Assembly (NCBI GenBank): GCA_001603075.1 | Contig: LVBB01000080.1 | Coordinates: 1-38,165 of the forward strand | DNA length: 38,165 bases | Source: Phycisphaerales bacterium Planc_01 | GTDB lineage: Bacteria; Planctomycetota; Phycisphaerae; Sedimentisphaerales; Anaerobacaceae | Reading direction: 5' to 3' | Shown: in pieces, positions 2,214-33,762 of the stretch | How the letters are laid out: each line of letters begins with the position of its first letter | How positions within the stretch are numbered: the first letter of the stretch is position 1 | Notes under the pieces: generated by a model | Databases searched by the model: none | The model's input: only the letters and a program-made list of their open reading frames with translations | What the model was told of the DNA's origin: nothing | Position numbers and translations under genes: made by a program

Positions 2214-3524
2214 CTATCGCAGCTTTTTGTGGGTGAATTTCCTTGCATCTTCGCCCGTATATTCGGCGACGATCTGGCCTTTGCCGTAGAGTTTCCACTT
2301 GTAGATGACGAGGCCTTCGAGGCCGACGGGGCCGCGGGCGTGGATTTTGTTGGTGCTGATTCCGACTTCGGCGCCGAGGCCGTAGCGGTAGCCGTCGGAG
2401 AAGCGGGTCGAGCAATTCCAGAAGACGTTGGCCGAGTCGACGAGAGCCATGAATCGTTCGGCCTTGTCCTTGTCGGCGGTGACGATGGCGTCGGTGTGGC
2501 CGGAGCCAAAACGGTTGATGTGGTCGATGGCGGCGTCGAGGCCGTCGACGACCTTGATCGCCAGGACCAGGTCGAGGTACTCGGCGGCCCAGTCGTCGTC
2601 GGTGGCGGGCTCGCAGACGATTGCGGCTCGGGTTCGGGGGCAGCCGCGAAGGCGCACGCCCCTGGCCTCCAATGCGCCCTGGAGGGCGGGCAGGAGGGTC
2701 TCGGCGATCGCGGCGTCGACCAGGAGCGTCTCGGCGGCGTTGCAGACGGCGACGTATTGGCACTTGGAATCGACGGCGATGGCGACGGCCATCTCGGGGT
2801 CGGCGTCGGCGTCGATGTAGACGTGGCAGATGCCGTCGGCGTGGCCGAGGACGGGGATGTTGGTGTGGGTCATGATGTGGCGGACGAATTCGTTGCTGCC
2901 GCGTGGGACGATCAGGTCGATGTGGTCGTCGAGTTCGAGCATGTCGGCGACGTCCTGGCGGGTTTCGAGCAGGGCGATCCAGCCGGAGGGCAGGCCGGCG
3001 GCGTCGCCTGCGGCGGCGATGGTCTCGGCGAGGATGCGGTTGGTGTGAGCCGCTTCGCTGCCGCCTTTGAGCAGGACGGCGTTGCCGCTCTTGAGGCAGA
3101 GGGTGGAGATCTGGACGAGGGCGTCGGGGCGGGACTCGAAGACGACGCCGATGACGCCGATGGGGCAACTGACTTTGTAGAGTTCGAGGCCGGCGTCGAG
3201 TTCGGTGGCGGCCAGCGTCCGGCCGACGGGGTCGTCGAGTTTGATCAGGCTGTGGATGCCGGCGCAGACGTCGGCGAGTTTGGCCTCGTCGAACTTGAGC
3301 CGCTTGAGCAGCGGGGGGGCGAGGCGGCTGCGCTCGGCCTCGGCCAGGTCGCGCTGGTTGGCGGCGACGATGTCGCTGCGGCGCTGGGTCAGGGCCTTGG
3401 CGATTTCGGTCAGGGCGGCGTTCTTGGCCTCGCTCTTGATCGCGGCCAGACGGATCGAGGCCGTCTTGGCCGCCGTCGCACGCTCGCGGATTGTCGTTTT
3501 GTTTGACATTTTGGCCTTTACCAT
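2214..3524 (-). CDS. proA: Glutamate-5-semialdehyde dehydrogenase (gamma-glutamyl phosphate reductase)
   Basis: ProA reduces gamma-glutamyl phosphate with NADPH in the second step of proline synthesis. The 436-residue length is normal. Recognisable blocks include CPIGVIGVVFESRPDAL, NAVLLKGGSEAAHTN, DLIVPRGSNEFVRHI, VLGHADGICHVY, the catalytic-Cys block VAVCNAAETLLV, GSGHTDAIVT, and FWNCSTRFSDGYRYGLGAEVGISTNK near the end. This last block is split here only to name its key residues, Ser-Thr-Arg-Phe and Gly-Ala-Glu-Val-Gly. Two starts are possible: ATG 3524 with GAGG 4 bases upstream, or ATG 3509 with AAAGG 5 bases upstream and a more typical MSN beginning. A promoter is placed at 3555-3583. 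It is a lone gene, convergent with darG; proB is not nearby. Confidence 0.96.
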   Translation of the reverse strand: MVKAKMSNKTTIRERATAAKTASIRLAAIKSEAKNAALTEIAKALTQRRSDIVAANQRDLAEAERSRLAPPLLKRLKFDEAKLADVCAGIHSLIKLDDPVGRTLAATELDAGLELYKVSCPIGVIGVVFESRPDALVQISTLCLKSGNAVLLKGGSEAAHTNRILAETIAAAGDAAGLPSGWIALLETRQDVADMLELDDHIDLIVPRGSNEFVRHIMTHTNIPVLGHADGICHVYIDADADPEMAVAIAVDSKCQYVAVCNAAETLLVDAAIAETLLPALQGALEARGVRLRGCPRTRAAIVCEPATDDDWAAEYLDLVLAIKVVDGLDAAIDHINRFGSGHTDAIVTADKDKAERFMALVDSANVFWNCSTRFSDGYRYGLGAEVGISTNKIHARGPVGLEGLVIYKWKLYGKGQIVAEYTGEDARKFTHKKLR

Positions 3525-3554
3525 TTAACCTCGGTCTCGTACGATAAGTGGCCG

Positions 3555-3583
3555 ATTATACGAGATCGGCTCCCGGCGATCAA
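3555..3583 (-). promoter_or_regulatory. Promoter for proA
   Basis: Read on the minus strand: TTGATC (3578-3583), a 17-base spacer, and a perfect TATAAT (3555-3560). Transcription would start near 3548, giving a leader of about 25-40 bases. Confidence 0.7.
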
Positions 3584-3595
3584 CATGCCCTCTTC

Positions 3596-3666
3596 GCGGG
3601 TGTAGCTTAGGGGTAAAGCTCCAGCCTTCCAAGCTGGCCACGCGGGTTCGATTCCCGCCACCCGCT
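3596..3666 (+). tRNA. tRNA-Gly (anticodon TCC)
   Basis: The acceptor arms GCGGGTG (3596-3602) and CACCCGC (3659-3665) pair fully. The anticodon stem CCAGC/GCTGG encloses the loop CTTCCAA with anticodon TCC. The T arm GCGGGTTCGATTCCCGC is canonical. The discriminator base is T (3666) and CCA is not encoded. No good plus-strand promoter was recognised in the 70 bases upstream. Confidence 0.97.
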
Positions 3667-4127
3667 TTTCCGGTCGAGGGGGGGGCATTGGTGCGGTCTG
3701 GGCGTCCTGGTTGTTGCGGAGCGAACGGCTCGCCTGCGGCGGGGCGGGGCGTCTGCATTGCGTCACTGTGGCGTCGTGCGGTGGTTGTGTATCGGCGGAT
3801 CGGTTCATCCTCGCGGTCGCTTCGGTTCTTTCATCCTTGCAGCAGAAGTCACATGCTCATTGTGGGATTCGTCTCGATCGCCGTCATCGTCGAGCCGGGT
3901 GTCACGCGTGACATGGCCGGCGGTCGGTGGGGGTGGTGAGGTCCCACATCGTGGGGCGGGGGGCCAGATTTTCCCATGGGGTTCCCCGAAGGCTCATCGG
4001 TCATCCGGGACAGAGCAATTATCGGACGACCTGGTGGCGGCAATTCCATAAGCCCATTTCCAAGAAGCACTTAAGCTATTACGTTGTGACAGTCTGGCGA
4101 TCGGTCCCGCAAAAAAAACGACAGAAA
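3667..4127. other. Intergenic region between tRNA-Gly and the mraZ promoter
   Basis: Several short open frames cross this 460-base stretch on both strands. None has a plausible ribosome-binding site, a recognisable motif, or codon use like the neighbouring genes. I see no RNA gene. It ends in an AT-richer segment (about 4070-4125) leading into the mraZ control region. Confidence 0.5.
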
Positions 4128-15719: not shown

Positions 15720-16535
15720 ATGAAACGACATGCGTTTACGTTGATCGAATTGCTCGTCGTGATTGCCGTCATTGCCGTTCTGATGGCCATTCTCATGCCC
15801 GCGCTGAATCTGGCCCGCGACCAGGGACGCAAGATGGTCTGCGCGAGCAATCTGCACAGTCTGGCCCTGGCCAACGGCCTGTACGCCGCCAACAACGACG
15901 ACTGGGGGGTCCCGTGCCGCGTCTTCAACGACCGGGGAACGGTTCTCTGGACGGGGAACCCCGTTTTCCGCACGTACATCGGCTATAAAGGGGCCGAGGA
16001 CTTCCCCGATCAGTCCATCGTGCAGACCCCGAAGAAGTACAAGTGTCCGAGCGACCGGCAGAAGGTATGGGAGCATGCCTACGACGTCGAGCAGGGCAGC
16101 ACGACCGGGACGCTGGTCAGCTACGGCTTCAATATCGAAGACTGGTTTCCCTCCGTCGGGCAGCCCTCGTGGACGGCGACGATGGATATGGCGGTCTTGG
16201 GGTACAAGATGTCCACGATCCCGCACCCGGCCGAGAAGCTCCACTTCAACGAGGGACACGACTGGTGGAGCAAGTGGAGCGGCGCCAATTACATCGCCGG
16301 GTGGGACGTGCTGGGCCAGGACGGCAGCGTCAACGAGTACAAGCAGGTCGGTTGCGGCGGCCCGACGATGTACCGGCACAACCATTCGGCCAATCTGGCC
16401 TTTTACGACGGCCATGTGGAGAGCTGGCGCAAGGAGAAACTCTGGGTTCCGGAGCACGCGCAGGTCAAGCCCTATCAGCCGGGGGTCTGGGTGGTCAAGC
16501 GAGACATCTGGGAAGCCAACGGCGGGGGCTCATAG
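15720..16535 (+). CDS. Prepilin-like protein with N-terminal methylation motif (planctomycete pseudopilin type)
   Basis: The 271-residue product opens with a type IV prepilin signal: a short basic leader MKRHA, then FTLIELLVVIAVIAVLMAI (key residue Glu at +5 after the expected cleavage before Phe), which is also the first membrane helix. The globular part has the CASNLHSLALANGLYAANND segment and CPSD motif common to the planctomycete DUF1559-like/prepilin proteins. It also has HNHSANLAFYDGHVESW, the H-x9-DG-type signature near the C-terminus. Such proteins are numerous in Phycisphaerae; individual roles are unknown. ATG 15720 follows CGGAG; an open upstream extension is not family-like. Its last 20 codons and stop are duplicated at 18472-18534. 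Confidence 0.88.
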   Translation: MKRHAFTLIELLVVIAVIAVLMAILMPALNLARDQGRKMVCASNLHSLALANGLYAANNDDWGVPCRVFNDRGTVLWTGNPVFRTYIGYKGAEDFPDQSIVQTPKKYKCPSDRQKVWEHAYDVEQGSTTGTLVSYGFNIEDWFPSVGQPSWTATMDMAVLGYKMSTIPHPAEKLHFNEGHDWWSKWSGANYIAGWDVLGQDGSVNEYKQVGCGGPTMYRHNHSANLAFYDGHVESWRKEKLWVPEHAQVKPYQPGVWVVKRDIWEANGGGS

Positions 16536-16538
16536 CGC
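16476..16538 (+). repeat. Left copy of 63-bp perfect direct repeat (3' end of the prepilin gene)
   Basis: Bases 16476-16538 are identical to 18472-18534. The repeat covers the final 20 codons and stop of the prepilin gene plus three bases. It begins CAGCCGGGGGTCTGG and ends GGCTCATAGCGC, and the flanking bases differ on both sides. Confidence 0.95.
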
Positions 16539-16665
16539 GGCCGGGCGTCAGGCTCGGCACGCGATCCCTCAATCTCCCCATACCAAGCTTGATGTTTGTC
16601 GAACGCGACAGAAGCTGCGCGGGATGATGTATATTGCCGCAGGGTAGCTGCGGGTTCAGAGCTTC

Positions 16666-16893
16666 CTATGGTTGGTGATTCCTCAGGCGGAATGCAGCCT
16701 GGGATCCTTCTGTCTTCTTGGTGTGCTTGGGCATTGGCGTCGCGTATGGTGAGCCAAGGCTGTAGTTTGGCCCAAAACTGACCCCACAGGCTTTCAATTT
16801 GCCAATAGCCTGGAGGCTCTTGCACAGTTTCCCGGTGTCAACCATCGGGTTGTTCTTTCCCAGGCTCTCAATGTCTATGTTCTGACGTTTCAT
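16666..16893 (-). CDS. Small hypothetical protein, third in the protease unit
   Basis: This frame gives 75 residues from ATG 16893, only 4 bases after the stop of the protease gene, so translation may be coupled. The product is basic and Lys/Ser/Asn-rich (MKRQNIDIESLGKNN, then MVDTGKLCKSLQAIGKLKACG); no membrane segment or known motif is visible. A short hairpin CCGCAG-GGTAG-CTGCGG (16637-16653) lies just downstream. I cannot assign a family, and a chance frame is possible. Confidence 0.4.
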   Translation of the reverse strand: MKRQNIDIESLGKNNPMVDTGKLCKSLQAIGKLKACGVSFGPNYSLGSPYATPMPKHTKKTEGSQAAFRLRNHQP

Positions 16894-16897
16894 AGGA

Positions 16898-17794
16898 TCA
16901 CCAGACAATCTGCTTGTGCTGCCCCTTTACGTGAATCACGCCTCTGGTTCCTAACTTGCGCATGAAATCAATCATCAGGCTCCAGTAGTTCCGTATCAGC
17001 CTCGACAGTTCCGCGTCCTTTCCAAAGTCCTCTATCTCCAGTTTCAACTTGCGCCTGAGCACTTCCATTGAGATACCGTGGCCGTGAGAGTGCCATTCAT
17101 CGGCATCGTTCAATTTCTCGGCTATTTCTGCCGCACGCTTACTCCGCATGGCTGGGGTGACTTTGAGCTTCTTAGTTTTTGTGACCTTCCAATTGCGAAA
17201 CTTGTACTTGGCAAGCCATTGCTCCAGAAGAAATACTGAATGTTTTATCGCATGTTCATAATCGTACAGTTCTGCGGGGTCGAATTTGGCACACAGATAG
17301 GCCATTTCTGCGGTGGTTAGCTCTCCCTTCGTTGCCTTTTCCATCAAATCGCGGAACTTCTTCAGGTAACCAACCGCTGGGCGATAGCCTGTTCCATCTG
17401 GCTTGGGCAACTGAGGGTCGATCGGGCCAAGTACCGAGTAGTAGTCCATGTTTATCGAGTCGCCCGACATCACCAATACCGTCCCAGCAGACATGGCTGC
17501 ATCTGGGACATAGAAATGCACCCGGCGGTAGTGGTGCCGCAAAGCAGTAGCTATTCGCTGAGCCACTTGGAGATACCCGCCTTCGGTCCCCAGGAAGAAC
17601 GCCAATGACGACTTGCTGTGCTTCTGCATCTTCCGGCACTCTATGGCATTACGGATGATGTCATCGGTGCCATAGGCAATACGGCCTGAATAGGCAAGAA
17701 CGTCAGCCTTCAGTCGGTCCTCCAAACGTCCAAGTGCGGCGTCCAACTGTCCTTGAACTAGGGCATTCGCGTCTTGGGCCAGTATGTCAGACAC
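16898..17794 (-). CDS. Clp-fold serine protease, SDH (serine dehydrogenase proteinase) family
   Basis: The 298-residue protein carries the ClpP/SppA/SDH-type serine protease core. It has LAFFLGTEGGYLQVAQRIA (residues 64-82; Gly72-Gly73 likely form the oxyanion hole), YVPDAAMSAGTVLVMSGD (95-112, nucleophile Ser102 in the M-S-A-G-T motif) and YYSVLGPIDPQ (118-128, the downstream active-site segment of this family). Neither a signal peptide nor a membrane helix is evident, so it is probably cytoplasmic. The start is GTG 17794 preceded by AAGGGGAG; the gene begins 16 bases after the upstream 88-residue gene, indicating an operon. Substrates of SDH-type proteases in accessory regions are not established. 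Codon use is less GC-biased than in flanking genes. Confidence 0.8.
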   Translation of the reverse strand: MSDILAQDANALVQGQLDAALGRLEDRLKADVLAYSGRIAYGTDDIIRNAIECRKMQKHSKSSLAFFLGTEGGYLQVAQRIATALRHHYRRVHFYVPDAAMSAGTVLVMSGDSINMDYYSVLGPIDPQLPKPDGTGYRPAVGYLKKFRDLMEKATKGELTTAEMAYLCAKFDPAELYDYEHAIKHSVFLLEQWLAKYKFRNWKVTKTKKLKVTPAMRSKRAAEIAEKLNDADEWHSHGHGISMEVLRRKLKLEIEDFGKDAELSRLIRNYWSLMIDFMRKLGTRGVIHVKGQHKQIVW

Positions 17795-17810
17795 TGTCTC
17801 CCCTTCGAAG

Positions 17811-18077
17811 TTAGGCGTCTCTTTCCTCCTCGATTTTACGCCACCGCGTCTGAACAGCTTGCTTGCCGATCTCGATTCGTCTCTCGGCAGATAGCGCGGC
17901 GGCCCGAGCTTTTCCGCCTTTCAGACCGCCAAGCCTGCCTAACAAAACCGCTGCGGGGTTCTTCCCTTCCTTGATGGCCTTAGCCAATAATTCCCTTTCC
18001 CCGGAGGCATGATCGACTATGGCCTCGAGTTGGTTCAAGTCGAGTTTCTTGCTCTTCGGACGCTCTTTCATCTCCAT
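17811..18077 (-). CDS. Small basic protein with GRLGGLKGGKARAAAL motif
   Basis: This is an 88-residue product from ATG 18077; ATG 18071 is the alternative. The N-terminal half is charged (KERPKSKKLDLNQLEAIVD). The C-terminal half has PAAVLLGRLGGLKGGKARAAALSAERR (key: two Gly-Gly-x-Lys-Gly-Gly-like turns followed by Ala-rich, Arg-rich helix) and ends QAVQTRWRKIEEE. I recall short bacterial proteins with this GLKGG-KAR-Ala pattern but know no function; a nucleic-acid-binding role would fit the charge. The same frame stays open upstream to 18515 but without start-site support. The protease gene follows 16 bases later. Confidence 0.7.
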   Translation of the reverse strand: MEMKERPKSKKLDLNQLEAIVDHASGERELLAKAIKEGKNPAAVLLGRLGGLKGGKARAAALSAERRIEIGKQAVQTRWRKIEEERDA

Positions 18078-18216
18078 AGTATACCATCGGGGTTTTCTGG
18101 ATGCGACTTGAATTTTTGACCGCTCAAGTATATGCTTCGGCAACCGCCAAGGATGGTTCAGGCGTTTCTGGCCTGTCGGTGAGTGTTCTCGCCATTCCCT
18201 AAAAGGACATACGGCA

Positions 18217-18354
18217 ATGGGAAAGAACGAAAAGACGTCAAAGAATGTGGCCTCTAAGGCCAGCAAACTTCTCCGGACATCAAAGAGCAAAACGGTACGA
18301 TCCGTAGGCGCGTCGGCCTTGACCCAGGCCCCGGACAGAAAGAAGTCTAAGTAA
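18217..18354 (+). CDS. 45-residue lysine-rich protein, divergent from the protease unit
   Basis: ATG 18217 has AAAAGGA (18201-18207) 9 bases upstream. The 45-residue product starts MGKNEKTSKNVASKASKLL and ends ASALTQAPDRKKSK. It is highly basic, Ser/Lys-rich and soluble, and below the usual size cut-off of gene callers. The K-N-E-K-T-S-K and S-A-L-T-Q-A-P-D segments resemble a small family I recall from bacterial accessory DNA; the function is unknown. It reads away from the 88-residue protein gene across a 139-base intergenic gap. Confidence 0.65.
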   Translation: MGKNEKTSKNVASKASKLLRTSKSKTVRSVGASALTQAPDRKKSK

Positions 18355-18471
18355 GGCGGGTGTTTGTCCGGTCGCTTGATGACTTTCCGCTGGATTGCGG
18401 TCCTGCGAGATTTGTGTAACGCGTGCCGACAAGACGAGTGGCCTCTGCGCAAGTCAAGTTGTGGCCGATTC

Positions 18472-18534
18472 CAGCCGGGGGTCTGGGTGGTCAAGCGAGA
18501 CATCTGGGAAGCCAACGGCGGGGGCTCATAGCGC
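18472..18534 (+). repeat. Right copy of 63-bp perfect direct repeat
   Basis: This stretch is identical to 16476-16538. Here it has no gene upstream: it is a free copy of the prepilin 3' end, including an in-frame TAG, directly before the PAP2 gene's 3' end. Confidence 0.95.
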
Positions 18535-18559
18535 CGTCGGGTTTCAGCGGGCGGCAGGC

Positions 18560-19354
18560 TCAGAACTGACGCAGAAGGTTGATTCCGACCGCGGGGTCCT
18601 CGTGGTTACCGTAGTAGGGCAATACGTCGAATCCCGCGATCTGCGGCCCCTCGTGGCGGCGGGCGACGGTGTGGCCGACGACCCAGCCCAGGCAGGCGCC
18701 GAAAACGACGTCGCTGGCCCAGTGGTCGCCCTGGTCCATCATACGCCAGGCGACGACGCCGGCGCCGAGGTAGGCGGGCAGAGCGACCTTCAGGCCGTAG
18801 AACTCGTGCAGGACCGAGGCGACGGTGAACGAGCTGGACGTATGGCCGCTGGGCCAGGCCCAGATCTCGCCGTCGGGCTGGTCGTTGTTGCGGACGGCCT
18901 TGAGCGCGCCGGTGACGACGCCGTTGATCGTCAGGGCCGAGAGCATCGTGACGGCCCGCTGTTTGCTGACTTCGTTCTGCTTGTCGGCGCTGACGACGTA
19001 CCAGAGCGCTGCGGCGGGAAGGTGGAACGCAGGCGAGCCGACCACCTTGAGGGTCTCGCCGCCGAAGTTGCCGAATCCCTCGTGTCGGTCGAAGTGGTCC
19101 GCGACGTCGTCGTCGGCGTTGCCGTTGTGCATCGCCACACTGGCCAGTCCCGCCCAGGCGAGCAGGGCCAGGTTGTCCGGGTGTACGAACGTGGCCTTCG
19201 CGTCGGCCTTGAGCCGGTCGGGGAAGATCCGCAGATCGGCCTTGGCCGACTCGACCCAGCTCGGCGCGGCCTCGTCCAATTCGGCCGCCCCGCCCGGAAG
19301 CGACAGCGCCGAGACACACACGCACAGCAGATTCCTGACCCATCGTGACATCAT
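18560..19354 (-). CDS. Exported PAP2-superfamily phosphatase
   Basis: PAP2 enzymes are membrane-associated acid phosphatases of lipid phosphates, including undecaprenyl pyrophosphate. From ATG 19354 the protein has 264 residues with an N-terminal signal peptide (WVRNLLCVCVSALSLPGGAAE). The three-part phosphatase signature is present in order: KAVRNNDQPDG (about 170-180), PSGHTSSSF (about 186-194), and WRMMDQGDHWASDVVFGACLG (His and Asp of the third motif; quoted in parts). A further in-frame ATG lies at 19405. The C-terminus ends INLLRQF, with a Gly-Asn-His-Glu segment before it. The substrate cannot be deduced. Confidence 0.88.
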   Translation of the reverse strand: MMSRWVRNLLCVCVSALSLPGGAAELDEAAPSWVESAKADLRIFPDRLKADAKATFVHPDNLALLAWAGLASVAMHNGNADDDVADHFDRHEGFGNFGGETLKVVGSPAFHLPAAALWYVVSADKQNEVSKQRAVTMLSALTINGVVTGALKAVRNNDQPDGEIWAWPSGHTSSSFTVASVLHEFYGLKVALPAYLGAGVVAWRMMDQGDHWASDVVFGACLGWVVGHTVARRHEGPQIAGFDVLPYYGNHEDPAVGINLLRQF

Positions 19355-30736: not shown

Positions 30737-31276
30737 ATGGCAGTACGCATCAGAATGACCCGCATGGGTCGCCGGCACAGGCCGTTTTTCCGCATCAACG
30801 CGATGGAGTCCCGCGCGCCGCGCGACGGGCGAATCCTCGAGAAGCTTGGGCACTACGACCCGCTCGAAAAGGACGCCGCCAAGCAGATCGTCCTGGACCG
30901 CGAACGCGTCGAGTTCTGGCTCGGCCAGGGCGCGACGCCCACCGATACCGTCGCCGAGGTGCTGCTGCGCCAGGGGATCAAGACGAAATACGCCGAGGAG
31001 AAGGCCACCCGACGGGCCAAGGCCAGGGGCATCGCCCGCAAGCAGGGCAAGCTGTTCACCGCCACCGAGCGGATCGTAGCCGAGAAGAAGGCCAAGGAAG
31101 CCGAAGAGAAGGCCAAAGCCGAGGCCGAAGCCGCCAAGGCAAAGGCCAAGGCCGAAGCCGAGGCCAAAGCCAAGGCGGAAGCGGAAGCCAAAGCCAAGGC
31201 GGAAGCCGAGGCCAAGGCCAAAGCGGAGGCCGAAGCGGCCAAGGCTGCCGAAGCAGGCGAAGGCGCTGCCGAGTAG
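30737..31276 (+). CDS. rpsP: Ribosomal protein bS16 with long Lys/Ala/Glu repeat tail
   Basis: bS16 is a 30S assembly protein, normally 80-100 residues. Residues 1-80 match: AVRIRMTRMGRRHRPFFRI, ESRAPRDGRILEKLGHYDP and RVEFWLGQGATPTDTVAEVL (family GAQPSDTV). A further 100 residues follow: a basic stretch, then a near-perfect repeat of KAKAEAEA-type units (about residues 115-175) predicted to be a single long charged helix. The DNA there is a degenerate tandem of AAGGCC/GAAGCC units. ATG 30737 follows GAAAGGA. The next gene is trmD, with rimM absent between them. Confidence 0.93.
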   Translation: MAVRIRMTRMGRRHRPFFRINAMESRAPRDGRILEKLGHYDPLEKDAAKQIVLDRERVEFWLGQGATPTDTVAEVLLRQGIKTKYAEEKATRRAKARGIARKQGKLFTATERIVAEKKAKEAEEKAKAEAEAAKAKAKAEAEAKAKAEAEAKAKAEAEAKAKAEAEAAKAAEAGEGAAE

Positions 31277-32061: not shown

Positions 32062-33246
32062 ATGCGATGTCCGACGTGCGGTAGCGAGAACATAGACGGA
32101 ACAACTGAGTGCGTTTCGTGCGGCCAACCGTGCCCCGTGTCCCAGTGCCCGCCGCCGACCGTGCAGATCAAACTCAGCGGTGCGGCTGTCGCTTCTGCCG
32201 TCCTGGCGGCGCTGGCCTGGCTTTGTTTCGTGCCGGCTGTGATTGCGGAGACGGATCGATACATTCTGAATCCCGACTCGGACTTCGTCAAATCCGCGGC
32301 CCTGGTGACCCTCTTTGGCACCCCCCTTGCGTTCATCCTGGGGATCGTCGGCCTGGTCGAAATCAGTGGAAGTGGTGGCCGTCGAACGGGACGCGGTTTT
32401 GCCGTGATCGGCACGGGCGCTCCGTTGGCAATGGTCCTCCTGATGACCTATGCGCCTGCTGTCCCGCTGAGGAGGAGTTCCGCCAGAAAAATGGTCTGCG
32501 GCGTGAATCTGGCGGGGATCGGCAAGGCGATGTGGATCTATGTCAACGATTACGATGACAAGCTGCCCGTTGCAGGGGGACGGGGCACGGTGTGGGGGCC
32601 GGGATTGGCCAGTTGGAGCGCCGGCCAGCGAGCCGATGCCTTCGGCCTCGATCCCAACGGCGCCGGCGGGCAGGCGACGATCAGTTCGAGCCTGTACCTG
32701 CTCGTTCGGTACATCGAGGTTCCCGCGAAGTCCTTCGTTTGCAGCAAGGACAGGGGGGGCAGGGAGTTCGATCCGACGAAGTACCGCATCGACGGCAAGA
32801 GACTGACGGACGTCTGGGACTTCGGCCCGAACCCAGCCAGGCACTGCAGCTATGCCTATCATCAACCCTATGGCCCCTATGCCCTGACGACGTACGCGGA
32901 ACCTGGCATGACTGTGGCCGCCGATCACAATCCGTGGATCGATGGGCCGAAGTGGAAGGCCGACGACTTCGCTGCATTCCGACCGGTTGTGGGGTCTGCC
33001 GCCGTCGGTGATGAGATGGGGCTCGGCAACGCCAAGGCGCACGGGCGAGACGGCCAGAACGTTCTGTTTCTCGATTCGCACGTGGAGTTCATGCGCCGAC
33101 CTTTCCGCGACATCGAGAACGACAACATCTACACCGCCTGGGACGGCGACGACAAGGCCCGCGGGCGGGCGCCGACGCCATACGACAGCCAGCCGGCCGA
33201 TCCACGCGATTCGCTGCTTCTCAACGATCCACCGCTGAAGCCGTAG
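32062..33246 (+). CDS. Zinc-ribbon, membrane-anchored protein with prepilin-like C-terminal domain
   Basis: From ATG 32062 (GGAG 7 bases upstream) the protein has 394 residues. It begins with a zinc ribbon, CPTCGSENIDGTTECVSCG (two CxxC pairs), then a DUF4190-like pair of membrane helices (ASAVLAALAWLCFVPAVI and TPLAFILGIVGLVEI) with a third near residue 115. The rest resembles the globular domain of planctomycete prepilin-like proteins: KMVCGVNLAGIGKAMWIYVNDYDDKLP, key Cys and Asn-Asp-Tyr; the CSKD block; and HGRDGQNVLFLDSHVEFM near the end. It lacks the FTLIELLVV prepilin signal, which its membrane module replaces. The function is unknown. Confidence 0.8.
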   Translation: MRCPTCGSENIDGTTECVSCGQPCPVSQCPPPTVQIKLSGAAVASAVLAALAWLCFVPAVIAETDRYILNPDSDFVKSAALVTLFGTPLAFILGIVGLVEISGSGGRRTGRGFAVIGTGAPLAMVLLMTYAPAVPLRRSSARKMVCGVNLAGIGKAMWIYVNDYDDKLPVAGGRGTVWGPGLASWSAGQRADAFGLDPNGAGGQATISSSLYLLVRYIEVPAKSFVCSKDRGGREFDPTKYRIDGKRLTDVWDFGPNPARHCSYAYHQPYGPYALTTYAEPGMTVAADHNPWIDGPKWKADDFAAFRPVVGSAAVGDEMGLGNAKAHGRDGQNVLFLDSHVEFMRRPFRDIENDNIYTAWDGDDKARGRAPTPYDSQPADPRDSLLLNDPPLKP

Positions 33247-33312
33247 GGTGTGCCCCGCACACCGACCCTGGCGCGCGGCGATGGATGGGATGGTGGGCGT
33301 GGCCCACCCTAC
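33243..33312. repeat. REP-like palindrome pair, copy 1
   Basis: The element runs from GTAGGGTG to CACCCTAC (outer inverted repeat). It contains two hairpins, GGTGTGCCCCGCACACC (33247-33263) and GGTGGGCGTGGCCCACC (33292-33308). This two-palindrome layout is that of a bacterial interspersed mosaic element. Confidence 0.8.
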
Positions 33313-33328
33313 GGAGGCGCGTGGAATG

Positions 33329-33398
33329 GTAGGGTGTGCCTCGCACACCGATCCTGACGCACGGCGATGGACGAAAAGGTGGGCGTGGCCCACCCTAC
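33329..33398. repeat. REP-like palindrome pair, copy 2
   Basis: This is a second copy with 86-base period relative to copy 1. Its hairpins are GGTGTGCCTCGCACACC (33333-33349) and GGTGGGCGTGGCCCACC (33378-33394). Copy 2 ends just before the transposase remnant. The stem differences between copies are few. Confidence 0.8.
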
Positions 33399-33414
33399 GG
33401 AATGGCGAGGGCTG

Positions 33415-33762
33415 ATGATGCCGAATTACCGTCGGCGATTCTTTCCGGGAGGCATGTTCTTCTTTACAGTGGTGACCGCGGAGCGTCGGCGTCTGTTCTG
33501 TGATGCCTGGGCCCGCCGATGCCTGCGCCGCGCGATGGCCTTGGTCCGGGCCGAGCGGCCGTTCGAGACGACCGCCATCGTCCTGCTGCCGGAGCACTTG
33601 CACTGCATCTGGCAGTTGCCCGAAGGCGACGCGGACTTCTCAACTCGCTGGTCGTGCCCGGCGAATGAAATGGTGGGCGTGGCCCACCGTACGGGGTCGG
33701 CCAGGAGGGGTGCGGGCATTTCTTCTTCCGGGGGGCTGAACATTTTTTTTCGTTGGGGGTAG
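33415..33762 (+). pseudogene. Truncated REP-associated tyrosine transposase (RAYT)
   Basis: Residues 1 to about 79 match the TnpA-REP/RAYT family: MPNYRRRFFPGGMFFFTVVT, a helix with Arg-rich RRCLRRAMALVRAERPFE, AIVLLPEHLHCIWQLPEGDADFSTRW. The metal-binding H-x-H (His61, His63 in EHLHCIW) is intact. After about base 33650 the sequence stops resembling the family, and the downstream region that should carry the catalytic tyrosine is missing. The frame instead runs through a REP palindrome (33672-33688) and into filler to 33762. Copies of the same palindrome lie directly upstream. The gene is therefore a remnant, probably cut by recombination between REP copies. Confidence 0.82.
33672..33688. 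repeat. Solo REP palindrome at the RAYT breakpoint
   Basis: GGTGGGCGTGGCCCACC is identical to the core palindromes at 33292 and 33378. It is followed by GTACGG (the other copies have CTACGG). Its position about 20 bases after the end of RAYT homology points to REP-mediated truncation. Confidence 0.8.

Follow-up and report, generated by a model that had tools for sequence, protein, structure and literature searches.

A protease module bracketed by a 63-bp direct repeat behind a pilin-like gene in Phycisphaerales bacterium Planc_01

A foreign module in which no recombinase was recognised sits behind a pilin-like gene of Phycisphaerales bacterium Planc_01, and a copy of the gene end lies on each side of it. 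The stretch analysed here, called the window, is contig C80 (LVBB01000080.1, 38,165 nucleotides) of this genome (G000), a 5.65-Mb draft in 162 contigs, and the module encodes a predicted serine protease of the ClpP fold together with small proteins. The reading we favour is a recent insertion of the module at the 3' end of the gene, an insertion with long target duplication in which 63 bp of the target were doubled; we give this reading an even chance of being right. It builds on the repeat, on empty sites in related genomes, on the foreign composition of the insert, on the lack of a recognised recombinase and on related modules that have different repeats elsewhere, and target copying during insertion is the origin of the repeat that fits these best. 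The features on which the argument turns are as follows.

15720-16535, plus strand: target gene, pilin-like, with an N-terminal methylation motif, intact (PF07963, 30.7 bits)
16476-16538, no strand: left repeat copy; preceded by the native 3' end of the pilin-like gene and followed by the element
16539-18471, no strand: inserted GC-poor segment, 1,933 bp; its DNA was not found in five congeners
18472-18534, no strand: right repeat copy; the element on its 5' side, native downstream DNA matching the G001 empty site on its 3' side
18560-19354, minus strand: native gene of the PAP2 superfamily, which follows the single repeat copy in the empty sites

The repeat, its insert and the empty sites

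The two copies are identical at 63 of 63 positions and the next bases on either side differ, which bears out the perfect direct repeat reported, with the same coordinates, in an earlier note made from the DNA letters. When the copies are extended to 76 nt, 72 positions agree. A 40-base part of the repeat, allowing up to 3 mismatches, was found at just two sites in the window and at none in 100 shuffles. The left copy spans the last 19 codons of the gene, the stop codon TAG at 16533-16535 and 3 further bases; the earlier note was right that the stop is covered but had counted 20 codons. Its term "prepilin-like", as our "pilin-like", is based on the PF07963 N-methylation motif, which scores 30.7 bits against a cutoff of 21.2; the DUF1559 match falls under its cutoff in the Pfam scan. 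The 1,933 bp between the copies have a GC content of 53.2%, compared with 64.2% and 63.7% in the adjoining 5 kb on each side, so the insert is less GC-rich than its flanks (about 64%), as had been noticed before. The inserted total is these 1,933 bp plus one repeat copy.

The description of a compact foreign cassette at a gene 3' end, with the target left whole and no recombinase recognised, stands. The repeat in the window is of the attachment type and does lie at a gene 3' end. Among the open reading frames (ORFs) of the insert, four of which were scanned with Pfam as proteins and the remainder judged from the ORF list, no recombinase was recognised. Inverted repeats are absent from the element ends, where only scattered partial matches at 3 mismatches were seen, none of them at paired end positions, and a search of G000 gave no IS1-like transposase match. 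A search of the whole genome with positions 16400-18600 (E ≤ 0.001) returned one place only, and no other pilin gene was found to share the repeat; among the matches listed, the other pilin matches in G000 cover roughly the first 190 bases of the gene only. The earlier suggestion of recombination among prepilin paralogues is therefore not supported, and we reject it because this search reported no second place for the gene end in G000.

Relatives with an empty site, which the earlier note had proposed to look for, do exist. A 3.7-kb query across the region gave matches in each of the six genomes of the genus (G000 and its congeners G001 to G005), and three of the five congeners (G001, G004 and G005) carry the pilin-like gene, a single repeat copy and the PAP2 gene. 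In G001 the native flanks adjoin: positions 1-837 and 2753-3679 of the query fall on one contiguous stretch with an overlap of 81 bp, which corresponds to the single repeat copy, and G004 and G005 have the same order. The alignment places the left copy in native upstream DNA and the right copy in native downstream DNA. Only the PAP2 side was matched in G003 (a 4-kb stretch), and the best match in G002 was short and again on the PAP2 side. When the insert DNA was searched in the five congeners no match was found in any of them. Between about 2.2 and 26.6 kb, a range that includes the insert, the window contig is collinear with G001 (C10), and beyond 27 kb the alignment is partly inverted. G000 and G001 differ at 2 of the 63 repeat bases and their pilin-like genes are 92% identical (8% difference). 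Because the two copies in the window are identical while G000 and G001 differ there, the insertion is younger than the split between these genomes, unless the copies have been homogenised.

The protease family and its carriers

The cassette encodes four proteins, three of them on the minus strand.

16666-16908, minus strand: small partner protein, 80 amino acids; its ORF overlaps the end of the protease gene
16898-17794, minus strand: predicted SDH-type ClpP-fold serine protease, 298 amino acids (PF01972; fold model; Ser102 invariant)
17811-18077, minus strand: GGLKGGKAR-type small protein, 88 amino acids; also directly before the protease in many transposase-linked loci
18112-18131, no strand: palindrome, read as TTGAGCGGTCAA in the orientation of the protease; lies between the small genes that diverge here; a possible operator
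18217-18354, plus strand: basic protein of 45 amino acids, phrog_5079 type (33.2 bits); its gene and the protease operon diverge

On the evidence of its fold model the window protein is a ClpP-fold SDH-type protease, with a predicted peptidase activity, and the "Clp-fold protease" of the earlier note was thus well named. It matches PF01972 with 50 bits (gathering cutoff 31.3) and the NCBIfam SDH model NF047768 with 67.5 bits; the latter is far under the equivalog cutoff of 250, and the protein therefore belongs to a separate subfamily. The AlphaFold model (46 sequences; predicted local distance difference test score, pLDDT, 92.8) has the ClpP fold, with a Foldseek E value of 3.4e-6 to 6x60_B and, against 7eko_B (VIA), a Z score of 14.6 and a root-mean-square deviation of 4.2 Å over 184 residues. 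Ser102 is unchanged in 46 of 46 aligned rows. The Pfam match, the fold and the invariant serine are shared with the SDH-type ClpP-like proteinases (PF01972; NF047768), but the window protease is longer, with 298 amino acids compared with 171-195 residues in the best-matching ClpP chains. It is present at one place only in G000, and distant SDH-type matches in the congeners G002 (31%) and G001 are different from the window cassette.

Relatives were taken from two sets: genome loci, namely the best 80 of 301 relatives of the protease, many of them on short contigs, and 45 viral contigs with protease relatives. It should be noted that counts out of 80, and those out of 118 given further below, describe the best-matching part of the protease family only. 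A partner-type ORF comes after the protease in 56 of the 78 genome loci counted and in 29 of the 44 viral ones, compared with 0 of 105 control regions further downstream, in counts made with a partner profile that was iterated on the same regions. The gene for the 45-amino-acid protein was not seen near the protease in the other loci scanned, and the matches to this protein are in two plasmid records and no phage record. None of the four cassette proteins matched the PADLOC anti-phage defence models at E ≤ 0.1. A palindrome, TTGAnCGnTCAA, stands before the small gene at window positions 18112-18131, and a like motif lies ahead of the transposase in L048, about 1131 bp past the start of the protease; a 20-nt repeat with a core similar to that of the palindrome flanks the operon in G617. 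The motif may be an operator. The insertion in G617 was not clean, as 382 bp of the native DNA of G514 and G682 were replaced.

The protease family is mobile. An IS1-like (DDE) transposase is linked to the protease in 15 of the 80 genome loci, 14 times on the same strand and 235-356 bp after it. Convincing element ends, with inverted repeats and an 8-bp target duplication, were found in three of these loci (exact in L216 and L102, with one mismatch in L112); the remaining 12 gave no convincing end pair, with a 13-bp end pair in L064 and, by eye, a left end in L048. The inverted repeats of these relatives start with GGTAGTG. Matches to DDE_Tnp_IS1 are weak: L104 passes with 25.0 bits (cutoff 24.1), whereas L206 (19.5 bits) and L242 fail. 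DDE_Tnp_IS240 passes its cutoff in L206, whose transposase scores 36.5 bits against the NCBIfam IS1 model (cutoff 100) and 36.6 bits against that for IS481. Compared with IS1-family transposons, these relatives share the DDE transposase with its weak IS1 matches, the GGTAGTG inverted repeats and the 8-bp duplications, whereas the window copy has neither transposase nor inverted repeats and is bracketed by a 63-bp repeat.

A sister IS1-like transposon lies in the congener G001 (C3, L243 1369-4017); its inverted repeats agree at 17 of 17 bases, and the target duplication, CATTCTTC, is 8 bp long. Its GGLKGGKAR protein is 61% identical to that of the window over 77 residues, and it carries a different SDH-type protease. 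This element suggests a transposon family built around ClpP-fold proteases. In-frame stops are present in the protease genes of the transposase-linked loci L047, L048 and L059, which indicates that transposon passengers decay.

On 33 of the 45 viral contigs an ORF of at least 120 amino acids lies upstream of the protease on the same strand, within 500 bp, and in 10 of 10 viral cases chosen for testing this ORF matched CI-type helix-turn-helix or S24 families. The viral members thereby share with prophage immunity-region (rex-position) accessory genes the position after the repressor; the window copy differs in lying outside any phage context, and an exclusion role for it would be by analogy. 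The protease was also found in a lambda-like immunity and replication region of NZ_CP130669.1 (L037), which is typed as a conjugative plasmid of the IncI2 group. On the Rhizobium plasmids of L034, L036 and L038 the protease follows multiubiquitin and ThiF-type adenylyltransferase genes, with DUF6527 named in L034 and L036. A role in defence or addiction is suggested by the places in which the protease occurs, namely downstream of prophage repressors, next to multiubiquitin operons and within transposons.

Related modules bracketed by other repeats

Five further loci were found in which direct repeats of 27-60 bp bracket a short unit with the protease, and the six loci, including the window, have six unrelated repeats.

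L107: perfect over 55 bp; made up of the final codons of an IspD-TPR gene and its stop
L093: 4 mismatches in 46 bp; lies close to where a PCC-domain gene ends
L110: 2 mismatches in 60 bp; lies close to a contig end
L115: perfect over 27 bp; hairpin with a T run directly after groEL
L111: 4 mismatches in 55 bp; corresponds to the 5' end of a DNA methylase gene and encloses a larger unit

No recombinase was recognised and no IS1-like transposase match was found in these five units, for which the methylase ORF of L111 and six ORFs of L110 were scanned with Pfam and the other ORFs judged by eye. The insert has a lower GC content than both flanks in the window, L107, L093 and L115. In L111 the DNA methylase gene (2287-4053; PF01555, 148 bits) lies directly upstream of the protease, and its 5' end recurs after the module.

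Repeats scoring at least 25 within 1,000/700 bp of the protease were found in 6 of 118 loci (window included), compared with 7 of the 748 control anchors that were set in these loci. Of the seven control repeats, five are 72-141 nt long and look like paralogous coding DNA. With repeats limited to 25-70 nt, a limit set after seeing the data, the counts without the window are 5/117 and 2/748 (P = 0.0007), or 4/116 (P = 0.004) when L130 is left out as well. L130 stays in the count of 6 in 118, although its 48-bp repeat was set aside as evidence, together with the 49-bp repeat of L191 and distant repeats in L098, L077, L067 and L055, all of which look dispersed by eye. The perfect 49-bp repeat of L191 (G327) contains GGGACAGCTACC and flanks the protease at a distance of about 1 kb each way; it is similar to repeats of REP-associated transposases.

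In a quick tree the window is grouped with L046, L047 and L048 in a clade of four rows (support by the Shimodaira-Hasegawa-like approximate likelihood ratio test, SH-aLRT, 100), of which two, the closest relatives L047 and L048, are transposase-linked. L110 falls in another four-row clade with L102, L104 and L112 (99), all three transposase-linked, while L093, L111, L107 and L115 are in parts of the tree without a transposase. Since the tree places the bracketed loci apart, insertion that is transposase-free and repeat-bracketed is not confined to one lineage.

Origin of the repeat and comparison with known systems

According to the reading we favour, the incoming module would comprise the SDH-type ClpP-fold protease, its small partner and two more small genes, and would be near kin of the modules on IS1-like transposons, minus the transposase and the inverted repeats. 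Its insertion would duplicate 63 bp of the target, such that the gene keeps its end and the far side gains a copy. The repeat would arise by copying of the target during insertion, through a long staggered break or a template switch in repair, followed by fill-in. The module may then spread by benefiting or addicting its host, through phage exclusion or in a toxin-antitoxin-like manner.

Several observations weigh against this reading. The edges of the repeat in the window are soft, as 9 of the 13 next bases still match, and in L093 all 4 mismatches are in the first 20 of the 46 repeat bases. Soft edges are better explained by an element that brings its own diverged copy of the gene end than by pure copying, and they keep alive both the attachment-site and the single-crossover explanations discussed below. 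No enzyme is known to us that would cut DNA with a stagger of 63 bp. The enrichment of repeats around the protease is modest, because without the window it amounts to 5/117 (Fisher P = 0.015) and, once L130, which looks dispersed, is also dropped, to 4/116 (P = 0.048). L111 lies outside this count and its repeat is a gene 5' end, not a 3' end, and neither L110 nor L111 has a clear drop in GC content. At the other five bracketed loci, of which L107 alone was searched, no empty site has come to light, so target duplication at these loci is what we infer. The genome of L107 (G303) is the sole one of its genus among those compared; order-level relatives had the IspD gene, with neighbours that were unmatched within the compared stretches.

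Gene 3' ends are a classic target of integrases and 63 bp is a usual length for an attachment (att) site. The window shares with integrase-borne elements in gene 3' ends a repeat made of the last codons and a gene that is left whole; it differs in having no integrase. One could regard the insert as a non-autonomous integrative element, with the repeats as attL and attR, the gene-end copy as attP, the gene restored on integration and a tyrosine recombinase acting in trans; mobilisation in trans had been one of the suggestions of the earlier note. The position and length of the repeat suit an att site, the soft edges agree, and G000 has three tyrosine recombinases over the Pfam cutoff, all on other contigs: XerC, a XerD-like protein just under the XerD cutoff, and a 488-amino-acid protein without an NCBIfam family over the cutoff. 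However, the window contig has no tyrosine recombinase at E ≤ 1e-5, the repeat region was found at a single place in the genome, and the other bracketed modules are at unrelated targets, with unrelated repeats and no integrase in the Pfam scans or ORF lists. An element from outside the genus would, moreover, already have to carry the gene end of the genus. We consider this explanation, the likeliest of the rivals, unlikely. Next in rank, and likewise improbable, is a single RecA crossover with circular or tandem DNA that holds the cassette and a short homologous gene end. It would yield exactly the product observed and would account for the soft edges and for the mismatched copies in L093, L110 and L111, but it requires the cassette to have been joined beforehand to the species' own gene end, 63 bp of homology is close to the minimum for RecA, and the protease is at a single place in G000.

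There is only a slim chance that the module is a decayed IS1-like protease transposon whose ends were lost later and that the repeat is an independent tandem duplication of the gene end. The closest relatives L047 and L048 are transposase-linked and G001 holds an intact sister transposon with another protease, both of which would agree with such a history. However, two coincident events would be needed, the repeat brackets the element exactly, the matches to inverted repeats are those scattered ones already described, and the 45-amino-acid gene was not seen in the other scanned loci. An assembly artefact, in which a cassette from elsewhere was joined at a shared 63-mer, is the least probable explanation: a draft of 162 contigs leaves room for misjoins, but the same 63-mer would have to adjoin the cassette elsewhere and the contig is collinear with G001 across the insert.

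Insertion with long target duplication has a precedent in restriction-modification (R-M) genes, which were reported to have inserted in this way (Nobusato et al. 2000; Furuta et al. 2010, as cited in PMC1643837, PMC3031569, PMC3874152 and PMC4978471). According to PMC3874152, R-M units differ in how they insert: in some the target duplication is short and accompanied by imperfect inverted repeats, in others it is long, variable and of the order of 100 bp. For the target duplication of IS1, PMC3031569 gives 8-10 bp. The window shares with the R-M cases a unit without mobility genes of its own and long direct repeats, with the sequence duplicated in one of two related genomes. In both the R-M units and the protease family the repeats vary from case to case and there are short and long forms of duplication. 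The differences are in the payload (R-M genes compared with a ClpP-fold protease and its partner), in the repeat length (about 100 bp compared with 27-63 bp) and in the phyla concerned; only at L111 does the likeness extend to the presence of a DNA methylase gene.

The question of how recombinase-free units enter with long duplications was raised by the R-M cases of Helicobacter pylori (2000, as cited), and no later explanation was found in the open-access papers examined. In the open-access text searched, partly with broad queries, no title or abstract start described the protease module or IS1-like transposons carrying it. The data reported here present the same anatomy with a different payload, at several unrelated sites and beside sister copies that move as transposons with 8-bp duplications. 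Because bracketed copies occur beside transposon-borne sisters, the two insertion modes of one module can be compared naturally. The module is also a candidate, and one that can be tested, for a system of phage exclusion or addiction that relies on a protease and would be new. A broader proposal, which we make tentatively and consider possible rather than probable, is that the protease and its partner form a selfish or defensive module with three routes of spread (IS1-like transposons, phage immunity regions and recombinase-free long target duplication), and that long duplication is a route by which addiction-like or defence modules insert in general and not one peculiar to R-M systems.

Two other repetitive regions were seen in the window. 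Near-identical GTAGGGTGTGCC...CCCACCCTACGG repeats with GTGGGCGTGGCCCAC cores are present at 33243-33410 and 33665-33699, and the region 31082-31252 is repetitive with units of 12-48 nt, by eye probably DNA that codes for runs of Ala, Lys and Glu.

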